DNA of 30,684 bases from a virus. Shown here one piece after another: positions 1 to 28,002 of the stretch (its first letter is position 1; every line of letters starts with the position of its first letter). Below the pieces are notes generated by a model. That model worked only from the letters and a program-made list of their open reading frames with translations, was not told where the DNA came from and searched no databases. The DNA lies in the IMG/VR virus record IMGVR_UViG_3300017951_000069, positions 1-30,684 of that record; one strand, written 5' to 3'. The position numbers and the translations under genes were made by a program.

Positions 1-193
1 CAAACACTGGTTTTACATTGGACCAGATGTACGCGCCTTTACGTGCATAGCAAAACTTCACGCAAGAGTCTGCCATAGGACATATTAGTTTACCAGACTG
101 TGATTTGTATGCTGGTAGGCCAAAGTTGAATACTCGTACGCCTAACTCTTGACTTGTTTTTTTAAGTTTACTATTTTGTGTAAGTAGATTCAT
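1..193 (-). CDS. gp88-like Cys-rich phage protein, N-terminal part (cut by window edge)
   Basis: The reading frame opens with ATG at 193 on the minus strand and stays open for 64 codons to the window edge. The visible protein has a conserved-looking Cys cluster, C38-P-M-A-D-S-C44-V-K-F-C48-Y-A. This arrangement is typical of the phage 'gene product 88' family, whose biochemical role is unknown; the Cys pattern suggests metal or Fe-S binding, which is inference. The gene is headed by copy A of the repeated promoter-like element at 211-250, about 18 nt upstream of the start. The C-terminal part lies outside the window, so length and completeness cannot be judged. Confidence 0.7.
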   Translation of the reverse strand, partial: MNLLTQNSKLKKTSQELGVRVFNFGLPAYKSQSGKLICPMADSCVKFCYARKGAYIWSNVKPVF

Positions 194-210
194 AACGCAA
201 TATTTATTAG

Positions 211-250
211 TTTATTATATTATCTATTTAGTTTCGTATTTAGTCTGTAA
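211..250 (-). promoter_or_regulatory. Promoter-like element, copy A
   Basis: Read on the minus strand the element is TTACAG, then an ATACG block, 8 free bases, then TAGATAATAT. All ten copies in the window share this spacing. This copy lies between the stop of the 91-aa gene and the start of the gp88-like gene. The left arm TGTAAC seen in other copies is degenerate here. Confidence 0.6.
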
Positions 251-251
251 G

Positions 252-527
252 CTAATCTAGTAATGCCATGTAAGCTTCCGGATTATTTACTCTAAACCAC
301 GTTAACGCACGATCAAAATCTTTAATCATTTTATCGTTTACTCTTTTAGGAGCTTTAGCAAAAACTACATTGCACCCCATAATAAAGTCGTATATACTAA
401 GCTCTATATTGTTTAGCTCATACGTTTCACCGCTAAACATATTAGTAACGGTTTCGCCTTCGGTATATAATTCACCGTTAAACCAATTAGGCAGTTTCTG
501 TTTCTTCTTCGCTGACATAACCTTCAT
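252..527 (-). CDS. Small conserved phage hypothetical protein (91 aa)
   Basis: The product resembles a family of small uncharacterised proteins that I recognise from marine phages, with the sequence NWFNGELYTEGETVTN near the N-terminus, then YELNNIELSIYDFIMG and a WFRVNNPEAYMALLD C-terminus. No function is known to me. The gene overlaps the end of the upstream 147-aa gene by 41 nt. ATG at 527 is the longest start; Met4 at 518 would shorten the overlap to 32 nt and is equally possible. Translational coupling with the upstream gene is likely. The stop codon sits 1 nt from promoter-like element A of the next operon. Confidence 0.75.
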   Translation of the reverse strand: MKVMSAKKKQKLPNWFNGELYTEGETVTNMFSGETYELNNIELSIYDFIMGCNVVFAKAPKRVNDKMIKDFDRALTWFRVNNPEAYMALLD

Positions 528-930
528 CTATTAATTCATCTGTAATTTCTTCGGCTAAACGATCACGTAAATAATCGTAACACTCTCGTACGGCATCGCT
601 TACATAATATGCATCTAAGTCGTCAACATATATTTTACCACCGTCTGCGATCGCATCTTCTAGTCTACCAGATAGATCATTCTCGTAGTAATGTACATCT
701 TCGTTTATACTTATATGCTCAGGGTTATGTGTTGCAATAAAAACCTCATAGCCGTCTGCAGTTGATTCGGCATACACCCAAAAGTCGGCATAGTTAGGCC
801 AGTCGTCAACTAGTTCAGTGTCGTAGTAATCTTGTACTGCGCATAGCATACTTTCTTCGCTCGCGTCTTCAGGGAAGCCACGCTTGTCAAGCATTTGTTC
901 GATCAACTCGTCGGTAATAATTTTACTCAT
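487..930 (-). CDS. Acidic hypothetical protein (147 aa)
   Basis: I do not recognise this protein. It is strongly acidic, rich in Asp, Glu and Tyr, with the highest charge density in the middle and C-terminus, which ends in a run of Glu/Thr. It lacks signal peptides, membrane segments and Cys clusters. Very acidic small phage early proteins include DNA mimics that inhibit host nucleases, but nothing specific here supports that role. It is the first gene of the operon driven by element B at 947-990 and overlaps the downstream 91-aa gene by 41 nt. Confidence 0.75.
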   Translation of the reverse strand: MSKIITDELIEQMLDKRGFPEDASEESMLCAVQDYYDTELVDDWPNYADFWVYAESTADGYEVFIATHNPEHISINEDVHYYENDLSGRLEDAIADGGKIYVDDLDAYYVSDAVRECYDYLRDRLAEEITDELIDEGYVSEEETETA

Positions 931-946
931 AATTAAATTTTTAATA

Positions 947-990
947 GTTACACTTATATTATCAGGCTATCGTCGTATTTATCTTGTAAG
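947..990 (-). promoter_or_regulatory. Promoter-like element, copy B
   Basis: This copy reads CTTACAAG, then ATACG, 8 bases, CTGATAATAT and GTGTAAC on the minus strand; the TAGATA block is changed to CTGATA. It overlaps the 3' end of the SH3-like gene: the TAA stop at 979-981 is part of the element. It heads the 487-930 / 252-527 operon. Confidence 0.65.
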
Positions 991-1263
991 TTGATAAAAC
1001 TTATAACTAGTATACACATTGCCTTTCGTTTTTACACGCAAAATATTATTTACGTTTATAGTTCGGTAGCCACGGTCGTCCATTGAAAATACAATAATGT
1101 TACCGCTTGCTGCCGCATCGTACTTAAGTTTACCACCGTTAAGGTGTGATTTTACACCAAACCGTGCATTGAAACTTCTAATAGTTCCGTCTTTTTTAAC
1201 GAAGGTGATATGAAATATTTTACCGTCGTTAAGATCTTTCGTTACATTTAATTTCCAGCTCAT
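979..1263 (-). CDS. SH3 beta-barrel-like small phage protein (94 aa)
   Basis: The sequence alternates short beta-prone segments and matches what I know of small phage proteins annotated as 'SH3 beta-barrel fold-containing': a basic N-terminus, then GVKSHLNGGKLKYD, then a stretch ending GYRTINVNNILRVKTKG. The role is unknown; related proteins are guessed to bind nucleic acid. The start codon lies 22 nt downstream of the tRNA-like RNA at 1286-1391. There is no own promoter-like element between them, so the gene probably shares a transcript with that RNA. The stop codon lies inside element B. Confidence 0.75.
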   Translation of the reverse strand: MSWKLNVTKDLNDGKIFHITFVKKDGTIRSFNARFGVKSHLNGGKLKYDAAASGNIIVFSMDDRGYRTINVNNILRVKTKGNVYTSYKFYQLTR

Positions 1264-1285
1264 AATAATTAATTTTAAAGTTAGT

Positions 1286-1391
1286 GGACGTGGCAGGAAT
1301 CGAACCTACGTTACTACAATTTAGGTACCGCTCCTCGCGGTATCTTTACGGCATTCGCCCACCTATTTTGTAGTCTAACCATTTCACGCCC
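1286..1391 (-). ncRNA. tRNA-like RNA with anticodon arm replaced by a long helix (candidate 1)
   Basis: On the minus strand a 5' GGGCGTG (1385-1391) pairs with a 3' CACGTCC (1286-1292), giving a 7-bp acceptor stem with one G-U. It is followed inward by a textbook T-arm (1293-1309; 5-bp stem, loop TTCGATT). A GG-containing D-loop-like stretch follows the 5' strand. No 5-bp/7-nt anticodon arm can be drawn. Instead 1313-1319 pairs with 1368-1374 (7 bp), 1322-1326 pairs with 1361-1365, and two small hairpins (1327-1341 and 1350-1359) cap the helix. The total is 106 nt. A P1 + T-arm + long P2 helix is reminiscent of a tmRNA tRNA-like domain, but no tag reading frame is contained. CCA is not encoded; the flank is ACTAAC. 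Confidence 0.6.
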
Positions 1392-1720
1392 AGTTGAGAG
1401 GCGGATAGCACTGGAATGTTAGGGACGCACGTCATTTACTAGTATGCCCTGACTTATACCCTTTTCTCTGTTTATACTATCTTTCGCTGTCATCGTTCAC
1501 ACAATTACAGGTGATCAAACCCTAGTGTCGTCAATATCTTGGCTTCCAGACTTAAACCTCTCTGCTAGCAATTCACTTATGTGTATTTTACCTGTGGCAT
1601 TTAGCAACGAAAATACCTAATTAAGCTACTCGTCTAGCTAAGCACCGCGATCATCGAGCCGTTTCTCGCATCCCGCTAAGGAATCACGCCTTTAGTCACA
1701 CGGTGCGTTGTGTAACAAAT
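1392..1720 (-). ncRNA. Non-coding stretch with strong RNA-structure potential
   Basis: No open reading frame of convincing length exists in this ~330-nt stretch on either strand. Read on the minus strand it contains several complementary pairs: GCACCG with CGGTGC enclosing ~50 nt, CGAG with CTCG around a 6-nt loop, CTA-AGG with CCTTAG, AGCTA with TAGCT around GACGAG, GTATTTT with AAAATAC, and ACAGGT with ACCTGT. The last two interleave like a pseudoknot. It lies between a gene stop and tRNA-like RNA 1 on the same strand. It could be the body of a longer RNA ending in the tRNA-like domain, or a separate RNA. I could not match it to tmRNA, a group I intron or RNase P. Confidence 0.35.
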
Positions 1721-1723
1721 AAA

Positions 1724-1960
1724 CTATTCTTTAGTTTTCTTTATAAATTTGTCGCCGTACTTTACATCGAACATACCGCATTCGAATAGGTTTACGTTTG
1801 CCCAAGTACAGAAGCTGTTGAACTCGCTGATTGTGAGATCAGTCCAGAGTAGTTTGTTTTCAAACTTAGTGATAAGTCGGCTTGCACTTGAATACTTTTC
1901 GGCTTCACTTAATAATCTTTTTTGGTATTTACTTTTTAGTTGTTGAAATAAATTTGTCAT
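1724..1960 (-). CDS. Hypothetical protein (78 aa)
   Basis: I do not recognise this protein. It has a helical, Lys-rich N-terminal half with coiled-coil-like heptads (roughly residues 5-40) and a C-terminal half with three aromatic-flanked Cys/Phe positions. The ATG at 1960 lies 18 nt from element C, which fixes the start. It is the first gene of a transcript that probably continues through the structured non-coding stretch and tRNA-like RNA 1 into the SH3-like gene. Confidence 0.6.
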   Translation of the reverse strand: MTNLFQQLKSKYQKRLLSEAEKYSSASRLITKFENKLLWTDLTISEFNSFCTWANVNLFECGMFDVKYGDKFIKKTKE

Positions 1961-1977
1961 AGTATTGTTTTTTTAAT

Positions 1978-2020
1978 GTTACATATATATTATCTATTGT
2001 GCTTCGTGTTTAGACTGTAA
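1978..2020 (-). promoter_or_regulatory. Promoter-like element, copy C
   Basis: A near-consensus copy: minus-strand TTTACAGTCTAAACACGA, 8 bases from ACG, then TAGATAATAT and ATGTAAC. The stop codon of the upstream 63-aa gene (TAA at 2010-2012) lies within it. It heads the 1724-1960 gene. Confidence 0.7.
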
Positions 2021-2201
2021 ATTGTTCTAAGGCTAATTCGATCGTACGTTGCATAACTGCACTGTGTACAGCATTGAAGTCGCTGTCGGCAATATCTTCA
2101 CCATCGAGAGTCCATTCAGTATTTTTATATAACTGTTCGAACCACCAGTCTGCTTGTGCACTTGCACTATTCTCTATTATTTTTTTATACTTACCTTGCA
2201 T
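2010..2201 (-). CDS. Hypothetical protein (63 aa)
   Basis: This is a small protein of unknown function with an aromatic DWWFEQLYKNTEW segment near the middle and a helical C-terminus. It overlaps the end of the upstream 60-aa gene by 11 nt, so the two are probably translationally coupled. Its last codons (Phe-Thr-Val-stop) are encoded inside promoter-like element C, showing how densely the block is packed. Confidence 0.65.
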   Translation of the reverse strand: MQGKYKKIIENSASAQADWWFEQLYKNTEWTLDGEDIADSDFNAVHSAVMQRTIELALEQFTV

Positions 2202-2373
2202 ATGTATACCCTTTATAGTTAAACCATTCTTTCATTCCATCTTTATCGGTATCGGGATTGTATATAAATCCGAATGCAGTGGGTAACTCGTCTAATAAGT
2301 AACCTGTGAATACTTTTCTGCCGATTTTTGCGGTAGGCTTACCGTCTACTTTGTAAAATTGAATTTTGTTCAT
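2191..2373 (-). CDS. Hypothetical protein (60 aa)
   Basis: I do not recognise this small basic/aromatic protein. It contains a DELPTAFGFIYNPDTDKDG segment; the DxDxDG-like run (NPDTDKDG) resembles an EF-hand-type Ca-binding loop but is too short to rely on. The start at 2373 lies 16 nt from element D. It forms an operon with the overlapping 63-aa gene downstream. Confidence 0.65.
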   Translation of the reverse strand: MNKIQFYKVDGKPTAKIGRKVFTGYLLDELPTAFGFIYNPDTDKDGMKEWFNYKGYTYAR

Positions 2374-2389
2374 TTGTTTATTTTTTATT

Positions 2390-2432
2390 GTTACACTAAT
2401 ATTATCTATTTGTTTTCGTATTCGCTCTGTAA
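2390..2432 (-). promoter_or_regulatory. Promoter-like element, copy D
   Basis: The minus-strand TTTACAG ... ATACGA, 8 bases after ACG, TAGATAATAT and GTGTAAC are all present. The upstream gene at 2406-2678 ends inside it: its last eight codons, Leu-Gln-Ser-Glu-Tyr-Glu-Asn-Lys, and the TAG stop (2406-2408) use element bases. Confidence 0.7.
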
Positions 2433-2678
2433 ATCGATTTCTTCATTTATATACCTCGCTATTTCGTAATAGTTTACGTCACTTAAAAAAGCTTTGGCAT
2501 AATCTACTAATACTGAATTAGCACCGTCCTTAGCACAGTTAGAAAATAAATACTCATCTAACCATTCTTGGAGTTCTTCAGCGGTGACATGATCGGACCA
2601 CACTACATTGCTGAATATTTCTAAGTTTACTCGCCAAGTGGCGTAGTTTGTCCACCCGTTATAATCTATAGTACTCAT
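2406..2678 (-). CDS. Small phage protein with GWTNYATW motif (DUF7249-like, 90 aa)
   Basis: The N-terminus YNGWTNYATWRVNLEIF matches a widespread family of small phage and plasmid proteins that share the G-W-T-N-Y-x-T-W signature. The family name is from memory and its function is unknown. The middle is helical and acidic (about residues 32-65), and the C-terminus contains an EIARYINEEI helix. It is the last gene of a three-gene operon under element E; its ATG overlaps the upstream stop by 4 nt (ATGA type). Confidence 0.75.
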   Translation of the reverse strand: MSTIDYNGWTNYATWRVNLEIFSNVVWSDHVTAEELQEWLDEYLFSNCAKDGANSVLVDYAKAFLSDVNYYEIARYINEEIDLQSEYENK

Positions 2679-2881
2679 AACTTTTCATATTTTAAAGATT
2701 TGTATGCGTTTACTTTTGCTGACTCGGATACAGCATTGCGGAATTGTATTTCACGATTACGATACTGTTCATCGGTACACCATTTTCGCCAAGCACGGGA
2801 GGTAGTATTTTCGCCCCACTTTGCTTCGAATTCTTCTACTTGCTTTAACTTTGCCGCTATTTGTTCACTTGTAATATTCAT
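2675..2881 (-). CDS. Hypothetical protein (68 aa)
   Basis: I do not recognise this protein. It is predicted to be mostly helical and charged, with a W-R-K-W-C motif near residue 31. It sits between two genes with 4-nt ATGA overlaps on both sides, strong evidence that it is translated as part of the 2406-3108 operon. Confidence 0.65.
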   Translation of the reverse strand: MNITSEQIAAKLKQVEEFEAKWGENTTSRAWRKWCTDEQYRNREIQFRNAVSESAKVNAYKSLKYEKL

Positions 2882-3108
2882 AACTGTTCCTCCACATTTT
2901 CTAAATCTAATCTTGCCTCTACATTTTCTAAAGCCAATTTATAACCGTACTGAATAGCCATTTGCATTAGTATAAAATCCGCACTACCACCATTAGATTG
3001 AGCAAACTCTTCTAAGTACTCTCGCGAGTCGGGTGTAGCAACTATTAATCTACCCTTCGGGCTTAGATTTGTTAATTCATTACTGATAAATTCTTTGATA
3101 CTTTCCAT
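2878..3108 (-). CDS. Hypothetical protein (76 aa)
   Basis: This is the first gene of a three-gene operon under element E. The product is acidic and helical, with an SPKGRLIVATPDSREYLEEF segment and a C-terminal duplicated N-V-E-x-x-L pattern (ENVEARLDLENVEEQL), which is also visible as a short DNA direct repeat (ACATTTTCTAAA on the plus strand near 2893 and 2921). The function is unknown. Confidence 0.65.
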   Translation of the reverse strand: MESIKEFISNELTNLSPKGRLIVATPDSREYLEEFAQSNGGSADFILMQMAIQYGYKLALENVEARLDLENVEEQL

Positions 3109-3124
3109 AATTATATTTTTATTT

Positions 3125-3166
3125 GTTACATTAATATTATCTATCGGTGGTCGTATTTAGACTGTA
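3125..3166 (-). promoter_or_regulatory. Promoter-like element, copy E
   Basis: The minus strand reads TACAGTCTAAATACGA, 8 bases after ACG, TAGATAATAT and ATGTAAC. The TAA stop of the upstream 69-aa gene (3157-3159) lies within it. It heads the 2878-3108 operon. Confidence 0.7.
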
Positions 3167-3366
3167 TACTCCTTACTCGTATCAGTATATATTTTACCGT
3201 CCGTATGTGTCATCCACTCTATACAACCCATACAAAAACCTTCCTGTATTAAAAACTCTTCCGGATTTTTAATCCACTTATCTAATCTTAATTCAAAACG
3301 GTATACTGTACCGTCTGAAAAATCTAATACTGTTAAATACATATCTTTACTTTTTAAAAATTCCAC
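3157..3366 (-). CDS. Hypothetical protein (69 aa)
   Basis: The function is unknown. The protein has a beta-rich N-terminal half (about residues 8-30) and a GFCMGCIEWM segment with a C-x-x-C pair that could bind metal or form a disulfide. It overlaps the upstream 97-aa gene by 13 nt and ends inside promoter-like element E. Confidence 0.6.
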   Translation of the reverse strand: MEFLKSKDMYLTVLDFSDGTVYRFELRLDKWIKNPEEFLIQEGFCMGCIEWMTHTDGKIYTDTSKEYTV

Positions 3367-3647
3367 TCTTTAGAATATAGTTTACTATCGATCACCTCTT
3401 GTACACCGCCATTCACCGCTTTGATCACATTTCGCAGTAGGTGAAACGGATTTTTATAATCATATATACAGTCAGGTAAATTCGGACCTCTCCAACCACA
3501 CTGCATGTTACTGATTGCAAAACTTGTTCCACTACTATTGGTGTATCGGTAGCCTACTGTACCGGACTGATTTTCGTACACGAAAAGTGTTTTTGGATTT
3601 AACCCACTTCTCTGTTGTGTGTTTACTTTTCCTATTAATTTTTTCAT
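3354..3647 (-). CDS. Hypothetical protein (97 aa)
   Basis: I do not recognise this protein. It is basic, beta-rich and Gly/Ser-rich in the first 45 residues, with a CGWRGPNLPDCIYDY segment in the middle and a helical C-terminal third. It is the first gene of the operon under element F, 20 nt from the element; the following 69-aa gene overlaps it by 13 nt. Confidence 0.6.
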   Translation of the reverse strand: MKKLIGKVNTQQRSGLNPKTLFVYENQSGTVGYRYTNSSGTSFAISNMQCGWRGPNLPDCIYDYKNPFHLLRNVIKAVNGGVQEVIDSKLYSKEWNF

Positions 3648-3666
3648 AGTTCACTTAGTTTTATTT

Positions 3667-3709
3667 GTTACATTTATATTATCTATTACTATTCGTATTT
3701 ACTTTGTAA
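3667..3709 (-). promoter_or_regulatory. Promoter-like element, copy F
   Basis: The minus strand has TTTACAAAGTAAATACGA, 8 bases after ACG, TAGATAATAT and AATGTAAC. It heads the 3354-3647 / 3157-3366 operon. No gene of credible length ends in this copy. Confidence 0.7.
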
Positions 3710-3845
3710 AAGTAATACTTTTGTTTACTCATTTTTTTTTCTTTACATATATAGCTTCACCTCTCTTGATCTGAGTTTACCTTTCACTTCAAAAAAAGTG
3801 TGACGTTAGGTAGTTATATTATTAGAGTAAGGGGCTATTGTCGCA

Positions 3846-4004
3846 CTATTCCATGCCCACTAACTCTATATTATATTTCTGTGCTGCGAATTTCATAAGT
3901 ATTTCAGTGAAGTGTCTCCCATCACCGTATAGATTTTCTATGTACCCTGCACTGTGAAAATATTGTAGTGCATTCATTACCTCTGATTTTTTTACTCTTG
4001 TCAT
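3846..4004 (-). CDS. Hypothetical protein (52 aa)
   Basis: The frame opens at 4004 with ATG-ACA-AGA, encoding MTRVKKSEVMNALQYF, and ends in VGMEstop at 3846. The product looks like a compact helical protein with a basic start. Element G lies 18 nt upstream at 4022-4064, the same spacing as at other real starts, and this is the main reason to trust so short a gene. The function is unknown. Confidence 0.6.
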   Translation of the reverse strand: MTRVKKSEVMNALQYFHSAGYIENLYGDGRHFTEILMKFAAQKYNIELVGME

Positions 4005-4021
4005 AATTACTATTTTTATTT

Positions 4022-4064
4022 GTTACACTTATATTATCTAAAGTCGATCGTGTCCGGCCTGTAA
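4022..4064 (-). promoter_or_regulatory. Promoter-like element, copy G
   Basis: On the minus strand: TTTACAGG, then ACACG, 8 bases, TAGATAATAT and AGTGTAAC. The middle block is GC-richer than in other copies. A GC-rich repeat (4069-4094) abuts it upstream. It heads the 52-aa gene. Confidence 0.65.
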
Positions 4065-4068
4065 ATTG

Positions 4069-4094
4069 CTATACGCTTCGCTTCGCTCCGCTTC
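4069..4094 (-). repeat. GC-rich AGCG repeat, copy 1
   Basis: On the minus strand GCGGAGCG is followed by AGCG-type units and GCGTATAGC, ending 5 nt before element G. Similar arrays lie beside elements I and J. The function is unknown; it could be an upstream activator site or a hairpin. Confidence 0.5.
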
Positions 4095-4180
4095 TTTACT
4101 TCACTGATCCGTTATTTAAATATGGTGTAGGACGGAGTCTACTCTTCCATAACCGGTGAGGTTACGGCCCCTTTGCTATA

Positions 4181-4196
4181 CACCCGTGGTCGGGTG
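4181..4196. other. Perfect hairpin
   Basis: CACCCG-TGGT-CGGGTG forms a 6-bp GC-rich stem with a 4-nt loop. It lies just after the end of the 32-aa gene on the minus strand and could terminate that transcript, although no U-run follows. Confidence 0.4.
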
Positions 4197-4204
4197 ATGT
4201 TATG

Positions 4205-4303
4205 TTAGTACCAGGTTGTTTCCCTTGGCGCTGGTCCGAGTGCTTTTCGGAACTGTTTTGCTTTTGCGATTACGAATAAGATCGTGTGCTTGAATTTTCT
4301 CAT
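4205..4303 (-). CDS. Small basic peptide (32 aa), tentative
   Basis: An ATG at 4303, 23 nt after tRNA-like RNA 2, opens a 32-codon frame starting MRKFKHTILFVIAKAK and ending ETTWYstop. It has a basic N-terminus followed by a short hydrophobic stretch (residues 7-13). The support is positional: the 979-1263 gene stands at the same distance from tRNA-like RNA 1, with the same ACTAAC leader. No homology is recognised. Confidence 0.4.
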   Translation of the reverse strand: MRKFKHTILFVIAKAKQFRKALGPAPRETTWY

Positions 4304-4326
4304 AGTTTTAATTGTTTAATGTTAGT

Positions 4327-4406
4327 GGATGCGATAGGATTCGAACCTATACCCCGTACCGTATCTCCTCCCTGAGTTCCTAGTACGATCAACCGATGCC
4401 ACACCC
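4327..4406 (-). ncRNA. tRNA-like RNA with enlarged anticodon loop (candidate 2)
   Basis: The minus strand 5' GGGTGTG (4400-4406) pairs with the 3' CGCATCC (4327-4333), giving 7 bp with two G-U pairs. The T-arm at 4334-4350 has a perfect 5-bp stem and loop TTCGAAT. A D-arm-like ATC-GGTT-GAT can be drawn at 4388-4397. The helix where the anticodon stem belongs is CGTAC (4383-4387) with GTACG (4355-4359), but it closes 23 nt instead of 7, and no alternative 5-bp/7-nt arm is visible. The total is 80 nt. No CCA is encoded and the 3' flank is ACTAAC, as in candidate 1. It could be a diverged or intron-bearing tRNA or a non-decoding tRNA mimic. Confidence 0.6.
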
Positions 4407-4427
4407 GTTTGGGGTCCGAGGACGTGA

Positions 4428-4685
4428 TTATATCACATCACTCGGGTCCATGTCTCTGACGAACTTAGGTAAGTCAAACGTCTGAGAGTAGTACTTGTAC
4501 TTGTTGAAACATTTCATGTTGTCAAATCTTTCTTTGTGGAAAGTATACACTTTGTCGTGGTTGTACTTGTGTACTTTGCCATCCCAGTCTGTGAATTGTA
4601 CGATCACATTTTTACCGATCAATGACTTTCTGATGATGAATCTTTTAGATACTAATACTTCTTGTTTTGTTTTTTTAGTTTTCAT
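4428..4685 (-). CDS. Basic hypothetical protein (85 aa)
   Basis: The product is a Lys-rich protein with a beta-prone core (I-V-Q-F-T-D-W-D-G-K-V-H-K-Y, about residues 28-41) and a C-terminal DLPKFVRDMDPSDVI. The pattern of small beta-strands with a D-G turn is like the SH3-like phage proteins, but the match is weak and I do not assign a family. It is preceded by two tandem promoter-like elements (H and I) and followed by tRNA-like RNA 2. Confidence 0.65.
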   Translation of the reverse strand: MKTKKTKQEVLVSKRFIIRKSLIGKNVIVQFTDWDGKVHKYNHDKVYTFHKERFDNMKCFNKYKYYSQTFDLPKFVRDMDPSDVI

Positions 4686-4701
4686 AATTTACTATTTATT
4701 T

Positions 4702-4746
4702 GTTATACATTTATTTTATCTACTTTACTTCGTATTTAGATTGTAA
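4702..4746 (-). promoter_or_regulatory. Promoter-like element, copy H
   Basis: The minus strand has TTACAATCTAAATACGA, 8 bases after ACG, TAGATAAAAT and a TGTATAAC variant of the left arm. It is the proximal of two tandem copies upstream of the 85-aa gene. Confidence 0.65.
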
Positions 4747-4770
4747 ATACTTTTTTATTATTTTATTTTA

Positions 4771-4812
4771 ATTACACTTATATTATCTACTCCACTCCGT
4801 ACCCAGTCTGTA
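4771..4812 (-). promoter_or_regulatory. Promoter-like element, copy I
   Basis: On the minus strand: TTACAGACTGGGTACG, 8 bases, TAGATAATAT and AGTGTAAT. This distal tandem copy lies 24 bp from copy H, with no gene between them. A GC-rich repeat abuts it. Confidence 0.65.
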
Positions 4813-4815
4813 AGT

Positions 4816-4861
4816 GCTATACGCGTTGCTGTACACGCTTCGCGCTATCGCGCTCCGCGTT
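4816..4861 (-). repeat. GC-rich AGCG repeat, copy 2
   Basis: The minus strand contains GCGGAGCGCGATAGCGCG, with a GCGC-GATA-GCGC hairpin, and ends GCGTATAGC next to element I. It also lies just after the stop of the 51-aa gene. Confidence 0.5.
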
Positions 4862-4866
4862 ATTGA

Positions 4867-5022
4867 TCAGGGTTCCAGGATCTCGGTCCCGATAACCTTG
4901 CTTGTGATCTCGTTGCTGTAGCAGACCTTCAGATAGTTATCCAGGTGTTGCTCGCTGTTGAACCGAATGACCCGTGAGTTGTAGTTCCCGAGCCAGTTCT
5001 TCGTGTCGATCCGGACTAGCAT
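4867..5022 (-). CDS. Hypothetical protein (51 aa)
   Basis: The ATG at 5022 lies inside the end of the upstream gene: the string ATGCTAG holds this start and that stop, giving a 7-nt overlap that favours translational re-initiation. The product begins MLVRIDTKNWLGNYNSRVI and ends GTEILEPstop. It is beta-prone and uses GC-richer codons than the neighbours. No family is recognised. Confidence 0.65.
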   Translation of the reverse strand: MLVRIDTKNWLGNYNSRVIRFNSEQHLDNYLKVCYSNEITSKVIGTEILEP

Positions 5023-5213
5023 AGCGATGGGTATACATTTTCATTTACAAAATCCCAGTGTTCATCGTTCAGATAATCGATCTGCTCTTCGGTTAGGACC
5101 GTGCCGTCTTCCAGCTCAGCTGATACCAGATACGCGTCGCAAAAGTCAGGGTAGTCTTGCATGTCTATACCCTCAAATTCCATGTGTCTTATTTGTGTTA
5201 AATCTATATACAT
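5016..5213 (-). CDS. Small acidic phage protein (65 aa)
   Basis: The sequence HMEFEGIDMQDYPDFCDAYL followed by LTEEQIDYLNDEHWDFVNE resembles a family of small acidic uncharacterised proteins common in marine phages, with conserved D-Y-P-D-F-C-D-A-Y. The function is unknown. It is the first gene of the operon under element J and is coupled to the 51-aa gene downstream. It is the outermost minus-strand gene before the divergent intergenic region. Confidence 0.75.
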   Translation of the reverse strand: MYIDLTQIRHMEFEGIDMQDYPDFCDAYLVSAELEDGTVLTEEQIDYLNDEHWDFVNENVYPSLC

Positions 5214-5230
5214 AACTATTAATTTTTATA

Positions 5231-5272
5231 TTCAACTATATTATCTACTATACCTCGTATCAGGACTGTAAA
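5231..5272 (-). promoter_or_regulatory. Promoter-like element, copy J
   Basis: On the minus strand: TTTACAGTCCTGATACGA, 8 bases after ACG, TAGATAATAT and a weak left arm. It heads the 5016-5213 / 4867-5022 operon and marks the left border of the divergent region. Confidence 0.65.
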
Positions 5273-5273
5273 T

Positions 5274-5318
5274 GCTATACGCGTATGCTATACGCTACGC
5301 GCTGCGCGCTCCGCTGCT
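5274..5318 (-). repeat. GC-rich AGCG repeat, copy 3
   Basis: The longest copy: the minus strand has GCGGAGCGCGCAGCGCG, with two GCGTATAGC-like units, directly beside element J. GCGC-GCA-GCGC can form a hairpin. Confidence 0.5.
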
Positions 5319-27921: not shown

Positions 27922-27932
27922 GTTTTATATAA

Positions 27933-27977
27933 GTAAGGTTACCCTCGATGTATCTTCGGGGGTAATTCTTACCTTTT
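27933..27977 (+). terminator. Rho-independent terminator after the major capsid gene
   Basis: GTAAG...CTTAC plus an inner TTACCC...GGGTAA form a long imperfect stem. A CCTTTTATTA tail starts at 27972. It begins 12 nt after the capsid stop and would cap the abundant capsid message. Confidence 0.7.
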
Positions 27978-28002
27978 ATTAATTATTTAATTTTATTATA
28001 TC

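Follow-up and report, generated by a model that had tools for sequence, protein, structure and literature searches.

We analysed a 30,684-nucleotide (nt) stretch of viral DNA (IMG/VR record IMGVR_UViG_3300017951_000069, positions 1 to 30,684; hereafter the window), a linear fragment of a virus record in which ten copies of a long, rigidly spaced element precede short minus-strand operons. The divergent late module, on the plus strand, includes genes for terminase, portal, GroEL and tail proteins. We counted ten minus-strand matches to the pattern TACA-N8-ACG-N8-NN-GATAA, against 0.003 per shuffle (maximum of 1 in 300 shuffles), and none on the plus strand of the whole 30.7-kilobase (kb) window, bearing out the original prediction of ten minus-strand copies with identical spacing. 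A matrix scan, using a scoring matrix built from 117 element sites in other genomes, recovered the same ten copies at 30–51 bits against a shuffle maximum of 6, and detected no eleventh copy elsewhere in the window and no element in the 25-kb late module. Predicted 5′ leaders measure 19–24 nt for nine of the ten copies, in agreement with the earlier claim that the copies head short operons, and elements B, C, D and E overlap the 3′ end of the upstream gene. The features of the array are given below, with +1 denoting the predicted transcription start and ORF an open reading frame.

2..193, minus strand: GP88-family ORF (Pfam GP88), open at the window end.
211..250, minus strand: element A; +1 at 212; leader 19 nt; heads the GP88-like gene 2-193.
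947..990, minus strand: element B, the CTGATAATAT variant; +1 at 951 (set by hand); leader 21 nt; heads ORFs 487-930 and 252-527.
1978..2020, minus strand: element C; +1 at 1982; leader 22 nt; heads ORF 1724-1960 and the non-coding DNA that follows.
2390..2432, minus strand: element D; +1 at 2394; leader 21 nt; heads ORFs 2191-2373 and 2010-2201; overlaps the 3′ end of ORF 2406-2678.
3125..3166, minus strand: element E; +1 at 3129; leader 21 nt; heads ORFs 2878-3108, 2675-2881 and 2406-2678.
3667..3709, minus strand: element F, the top score (51.5 bits); +1 at 3671; leader 24 nt; heads ORFs 3354-3647 and 3157-3366.
4022..4064, minus strand: element G; +1 at 4026; leader 22 nt; heads ORF 3846-4004.
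4702..4746, minus strand: element H, with TAGATAAAAT, the downstream half of a tandem pair; +1 at 4708; leader 23 nt; heads ORF 4428-4685.
4771..4812, minus strand: element I, the upstream half of the tandem pair with H; +1 at 4775; leader 90 nt to ORF 4428-4685.
5231..5272, minus strand: element J, the first of the array, adjoining the divergent late module; +1 at 5233; leader 20 nt; heads ORFs 5016-5213 and 4867-5022.

The element core is TACAAACTAAATACGA-N9-GATAATAT, the -10-like GATAATAT being its most conserved part. The invariant core is GATAATAT and not TAGATAATAT, as copies B and H illustrate, and the two bases before it differ from genome to genome across the clade of related phages. 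The middle block extends beyond ACG: AACTAAATACGA is kept at positions that the search pattern left free, and aligned IMG/VR sites retain AACTAAAT between TACA and ACG, an A after ACG and a purine at fixed distance after GATAATAT. The gap from TACGA to GATAATA is 9 in 428 cases (runner-up gap, 6), and a spacing one base short gave no matches in 32 records, 25 of which match with the correct spacing. The -14/-13 bases and the upstream block agree within each genome but differ between genomes, whereas the spacer that separates them is not constant among copies; such genome-specific codes suggest a co-evolving reader.

We placed GATAATAT at -12 to -5, with +1 lying 12 base pairs (bp) after its first G. 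In this register, 94% of 963 copies not selected on that base have a purine at +1 (A 0.48, G 0.46), with G at 46% compared with 2–14% at surrounding positions, and the base before +1 is T or C in 71% of copies. First ATGs of ORFs of at least 40 amino acids (aa) peak exactly at +1, with 93 cases against 4 and 7 at the neighbouring positions, and the predicted leaderless share is about 11.5%; a second, broad peak lies 17–24 nt from the predicted +1. We read the element as a promoter because of this purine +1, the ATG peak at +1, the 19–24-nt leaders in the window and the rigid spacing, all of which favour the promoter-like nature first proposed for it. Placement at gene starts likewise holds across the clade, with a minority of copies (about 15% of 964) lying within ORFs of at least 60 aa.

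These features are best explained by a class of promoters that spans about 33 bp (-37 to -5). The original prediction had described a -35/-10-like pair; its promoter layout stands, but the -10 is GATAAT rather than TAGATA, and the upstream block spans -37 to -22 instead of a mere hexamer. Its further suggestion, that the outer TTACA and TGTAA arms form an inverted repeat for a dimeric regulator, did not hold up. The TGTAA arm is exact in seven of the ten window copies and in about 20% of the 964 clade copies, it coincides with the predicted start site, and it accompanies TTACA only loosely (87 of 341 copies with TTACA against 111 of 623 without). We rejected a palindromic operator on the grounds that the arms are not kept together.

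Elements J, I and G are each preceded, at a distance of a few bases, by the word GTATAGCA (window positions 5279, 4821 and 4073, minus strand). In relatives, the word TATAGCA shows a modest excess in the early regions, with 204 and 268 occurrences where about 166 per strand would be expected.

A pattern scan of IMG/VR located the element in at least 120 stretches. Ten near-complete contigs (59–71 kb) carry 6–20 copies each, on one strand and mostly packed into a single region of several kilobases; besides terminase, portal and GroEL, they have a dozen further gene families in common with the window. On a terminase–portal tree the element phages form one clade with full support, MW202828 is its sister, and elemo and Maribacter phage Panino fall outside. 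The hosts are presumably Flavobacteriia-type (Bacteroidota) bacteria, judging from the clade's cultured relatives, which infect Flavobacteriaceae. Among about 85,000 prokaryote genomes the strict consensus matched five stretches, at least three of which are contigs with several copies together with phage genes of the clade. BLASTN of the consensus against cultured phages returned weak matches (best E 0.03 among the matches listed), and a literature search turned up no description of the element motif or of the sigma factor described next.

Each of the ten near-complete contigs encodes a protein, about 251 aa long, that contains Sigma70 regions 2 and 4. It matches a PHROG sigma family (E 8e-25), its solved-structure relatives are sigma factors only, and a structure model of moderate quality (predicted local distance difference test score 73) likewise has sigma factors as fold matches. 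A search with the sigma protein returned at least 467 loci in IMG/VR, 224 of which were retrieved (further seeds added). This search was independent of the element, and it led back to the array in 148 of the 150 loci for which 5 kb or more of upstream sequence was available; in the first 80 loci, 360 copies lie on the sigma strand against 4 on the opposite one. Conversely, the sigma gene is present in 20 of 25 long element-bearing contigs (in G033, one of these 20, the contig ends within the gene), and the other five are fragments broken at the sigma locus, such that all clade contigs covering this locus encode a sigma-70-family factor. An element directly precedes the sigma gene in eleven loci (at least seven non-redundant), with a leader of 0–3 nt; in other phages, sigma typically lies 1.3–2.7 kb behind the nearest same-strand element.

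Two records depart from the usual arrangement of this locus. In G007 (the IMG/VR record behind L011, likewise counted among the 20), the sigma gene at 55767-56520 (minus strand) contains several stop codons and gives two overlapping matches, reflecting either an assembly error or a decayed copy. In G013 (the 129,537-base record behind L019 and L022), both the sigma gene and the element array occur twice, at a distance of about 62 kb; this record is either two related genomes joined or a chimera.

A second gene accompanies sigma: in 170 of 172 loci, a helix-turn-helix (HTH) protein gene lies upstream of it and usually overlaps it (median gap -1 nt, upper quartile 93 nt). The protein has about 207 aa with a C-terminal helix-turn-helix, and HTH_11 was detected in nine of nine members scanned. 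A fold search with a model of the protein matched its C-terminal 56 residues to DNA-binding domains of the TetR/IdeR type (Z up to 6.6), an arrangement that is widespread; for the remainder of the model no fold match was listed. The HTH gene search in relatives covered the fetched stretches, which are partial for Gundel_1 and phi18:3. The original prediction had mentioned a phage-encoded factor, and the clade loci now supply a candidate in the sigma-70-family protein with its HTH neighbour.

The conserved HTH gene that goes with the element, and an upstream block that exceeds a -35 hexamer, could also point to an operator for a phage regulator such as the HTH protein, with no promoter core. 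We regard this as very unlikely, given the purine +1 and leaderless starts at a fixed distance, arms that are not kept together as a palindrome, and the -10-like GATAATAT as the most conserved part. Promoters for a phage-encoded RNA polymerase, single-subunit or virion-borne, would account for the long rigid sequence and the leaderless starts, and the late strand does encode giant proteins of at least 2,000 aa. This is the least probable explanation that we considered, since a sigma-70-family factor at the same locus already explains the -10/-35 layout; the T7-like polymerase domain PF00940 was found in 0 of 42 element-bearing records, which is weak evidence as control genomes were silent too.

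We next compared the element with host promoters. In Flavobacterium psychrophilum, the sigma A box is TAnnTTTG at -12 to -5 (PMC9723704). The element does not show the Bacteroidota sigma A signature of TAnnTTTG at -12 to -5 and TTG near -33, and has GATAATAT in that register, upholding the earlier remark that it does not resemble the usual Bacteroidota -33/-7 promoter. At -12 it has an invariant G instead of T. Region 2.4 of host RpoD reads WWIRQSILQ in three metagenome-assembled genomes of Flavobacteriales/Bacteroidetes; the phage sigma has RIKGAIRR, in which G106 and R109 are invariant across 121 sequences and align to sigma-70 Q437 and T440, where the host RpoDs have Q and L. We take Q437 and T440 to be the sigma-70 residues that read promoter position -12. 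Host-type promoters are in excess on the coding strands of MW202828, elemo and Panino and not across the element clade (raw counts against shuffles); for Callevirus phi38:1 the excess is not clear, and in two contigs of the clade (G002 and G008) single strands reach about twice the expectation. The promoter class upstream of these phage genes thus appears to differ from host promoters.

These data bear on the possibility that the elements are early promoters for the host sigma A holoenzyme, perhaps with a phage activator, and that the phage sigma serves late genes. Such an arrangement would suit an array located within an early-like module of small ORFs, and a sigma gene mostly downstream of the array, which implies that something else acts first; it would also be compatible with the result that no repeated late promoter was found in the gaps of the structural strand. 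We nevertheless consider it unlikely, and disfavour host sigma A because the host box (PMC9723704) is absent and the phage sigma differs from RpoD at the -12-reading positions. The near absence of the element from prokaryote genomes, the host-type promoter excess in element-less relatives and not in the element clade as a whole, and the element in front of sigma itself in at least seven loci also argue against it.

We therefore favour, as the likely reading, that the elements are promoters for the host RNA polymerase core carrying the phage sigma-70-family factor, with the HTH protein probably taking part. On DNA entry, host polymerase would first make some sigma, which, likely with the HTH protein, would redirect host core polymerase to the array and turn on the early-like operons of small genes. 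GATAATAT at -12 to -5 would serve as the -10 element, with transcription starting 12 bp beyond its first G, at a purine, and TACAAACTAAATACGA at -37 to -22 would combine a -35 contact at about -36 to -30 (sigma region 4.2) with an extra stretch at -29 to -22. Where an element heads the sigma gene, positive autoregulation could create a self-reinforcing loop. Among these proposals we would rank promoter function in cells first, reading by the phage sigma rather than host sigma A second, and the HTH role and the timing last.

Several observations weigh against this model. The promoter assignment is drawn from sequence, and the co-occurrence of element and sigma amounts to one event on the terminase–portal tree that is not independently replicated; as far as the sampled tree shows, the two were gained, or lost, together once. 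Sigma lies behind the array in most phages, such that its first transcription needs another route, and host-type promoters ahead of it are not enriched (52 found against 44 expected). The -29 to -22 block lies beyond the usual reach of sigma. A raw mutual-information scan ranked highest sigma column Q229, which corresponds to Q589 of sigma-70 in the helix that recognises the -35. When the tree was taken into account, however, residue-level co-variation between sigma and the genome-specific parts of the element was lost, Q229 included: this residue shows only about four changes along the branches, and the variant bases do not tend to arise together with them, so we dropped the signal as evidence. 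Co-variation between the HTH protein and the element lacked clear residue localisation in a raw scan. Finally, the window itself contains no sigma gene.

The sister phage G021 offers a guide to this last point. Its GP88-family candidate (3730-4335) lies behind an element of its own and, reading the contig across its ends, about 5.6 kb before the sigma gene (64021-64770). From this gene order, we predict that the window's own phage carries its sigma and HTH genes to the left of position 1.

The HTH protein may read the -29 to -22 block. A tentative extension, which we hold possible but doubtful, is a two-protein reader in which sigma reads the -10/-35 and its HTH neighbour reads -29 to -22, the pair having diversified into genome-specific codes (for example L202, L208, L235 and L227) that all copies in a genome follow. 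If true, this reader would constitute a large natural set of mutually orthogonal sigma–promoter pairs for Bacteroidota.

Phage sigma regulons are also present in T4 and SPO1. In SPO1, gp28 and gp33/gp34 provide phage sigma with a partner protein, and the late -10 sequence GATATT has G at -12. The present system resembles SPO1 in combining sigma with a partner and in the G at -12, but belongs to another phage lineage and host phylum and has as its candidate partner an HTH protein encoded before sigma. phiEco32 gp36 and 7-11 gp47 are sigma-like factors that take over the host core polymerase; 7-11 promoters are bipartite (GTAAtg-16-aCTA), starts fall 6–9 bp from the promoter element, and in phages of this kind the promoter sequence shifts as sigma diverges (PMC8948821). 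The likeness to phiEco32 and 7-11 consists of a phage-encoded sigma-family protein with a promoter class of its own, here deduced from sequence. In those phages sigma serves middle and late genes through six to eight promoters, whereas the present array belongs to a module of early-like character, its consensus is rigid and much longer, sigma is preceded by an HTH gene and the hosts are probably Bacteroidota.

Flavobacterium sigma A promoters have short leaders, starts a few bases after the box and 5.5% leaderless mRNAs (PMC9723704). The element is similar in its box at -12 to -5 and in its predicted start a few bases downstream, short leaders and leaderless mRNAs, but GATAATAT replaces TAnnTTTG, the -37 to -22 block is strong and the predicted leaderless share is about twice as high. 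Elemovirus, Callevirus and Maribacter phage Panino encode the same terminase and portal families and GroEL and have neither a sigma match nor the element; in six cultured relatives, whole-record searches found no sigma and no exact match to the element pattern. Within phage sigma regulons, the clade stands out by its long rigid promoter, frequent predicted leaderless starts, HTH gene coupled to sigma and genome-specific codes.

In the literature that we searched, the transcription programmes of Flavobacteriia-type phages are little described, and single-base start sites can now be predicted from sequence alone across a clade of at least 467 sigma loci. In Bacteroidota, expression signals taken from other phyla frequently fail (PMC9723704), and genome-specific codes, each paired with its sigma, would be of use as genetic parts there.

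Some smaller features accompany these modules. On the window plus strand, a terminator-like hairpin followed by TTATTATATTATATC or a close variant (27922-28002) precedes a late gene and recurs in most clade contigs; it could be a processing or translation signal. In the minus-strand module, positions 1282-1391 encode a 110-nt mini transfer-messenger RNA (tmRNA)-like RNA (Rfam tmRNA, 33.7 bits; gathering score 47), and a counterpart of 82 nt lies at L142:2835-2916 (plus strand; 36.8 bits, same gathering score), both without the tag-reading domain. ARAGORN at default settings reported no tmRNA or transfer RNA (tRNA) there; at permissive settings, it returned a tRNA-Leu with a 306-nt insertion at 1284-1673 (minus strand) with the same 3′ end, and the tmRNA-like reading fits better. 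A second tRNA-like 3′ end (T-arm, CCACTA) occurs at 4326-4406 (minus strand; Rfam tRNA 19.7 bits, below the cut-off). Just downstream of the tmRNA-like RNA, at 979-1263 (minus strand), is a gene for a small WYL_2 protein with an Sm-like fold (Pfam, above the cut-off).

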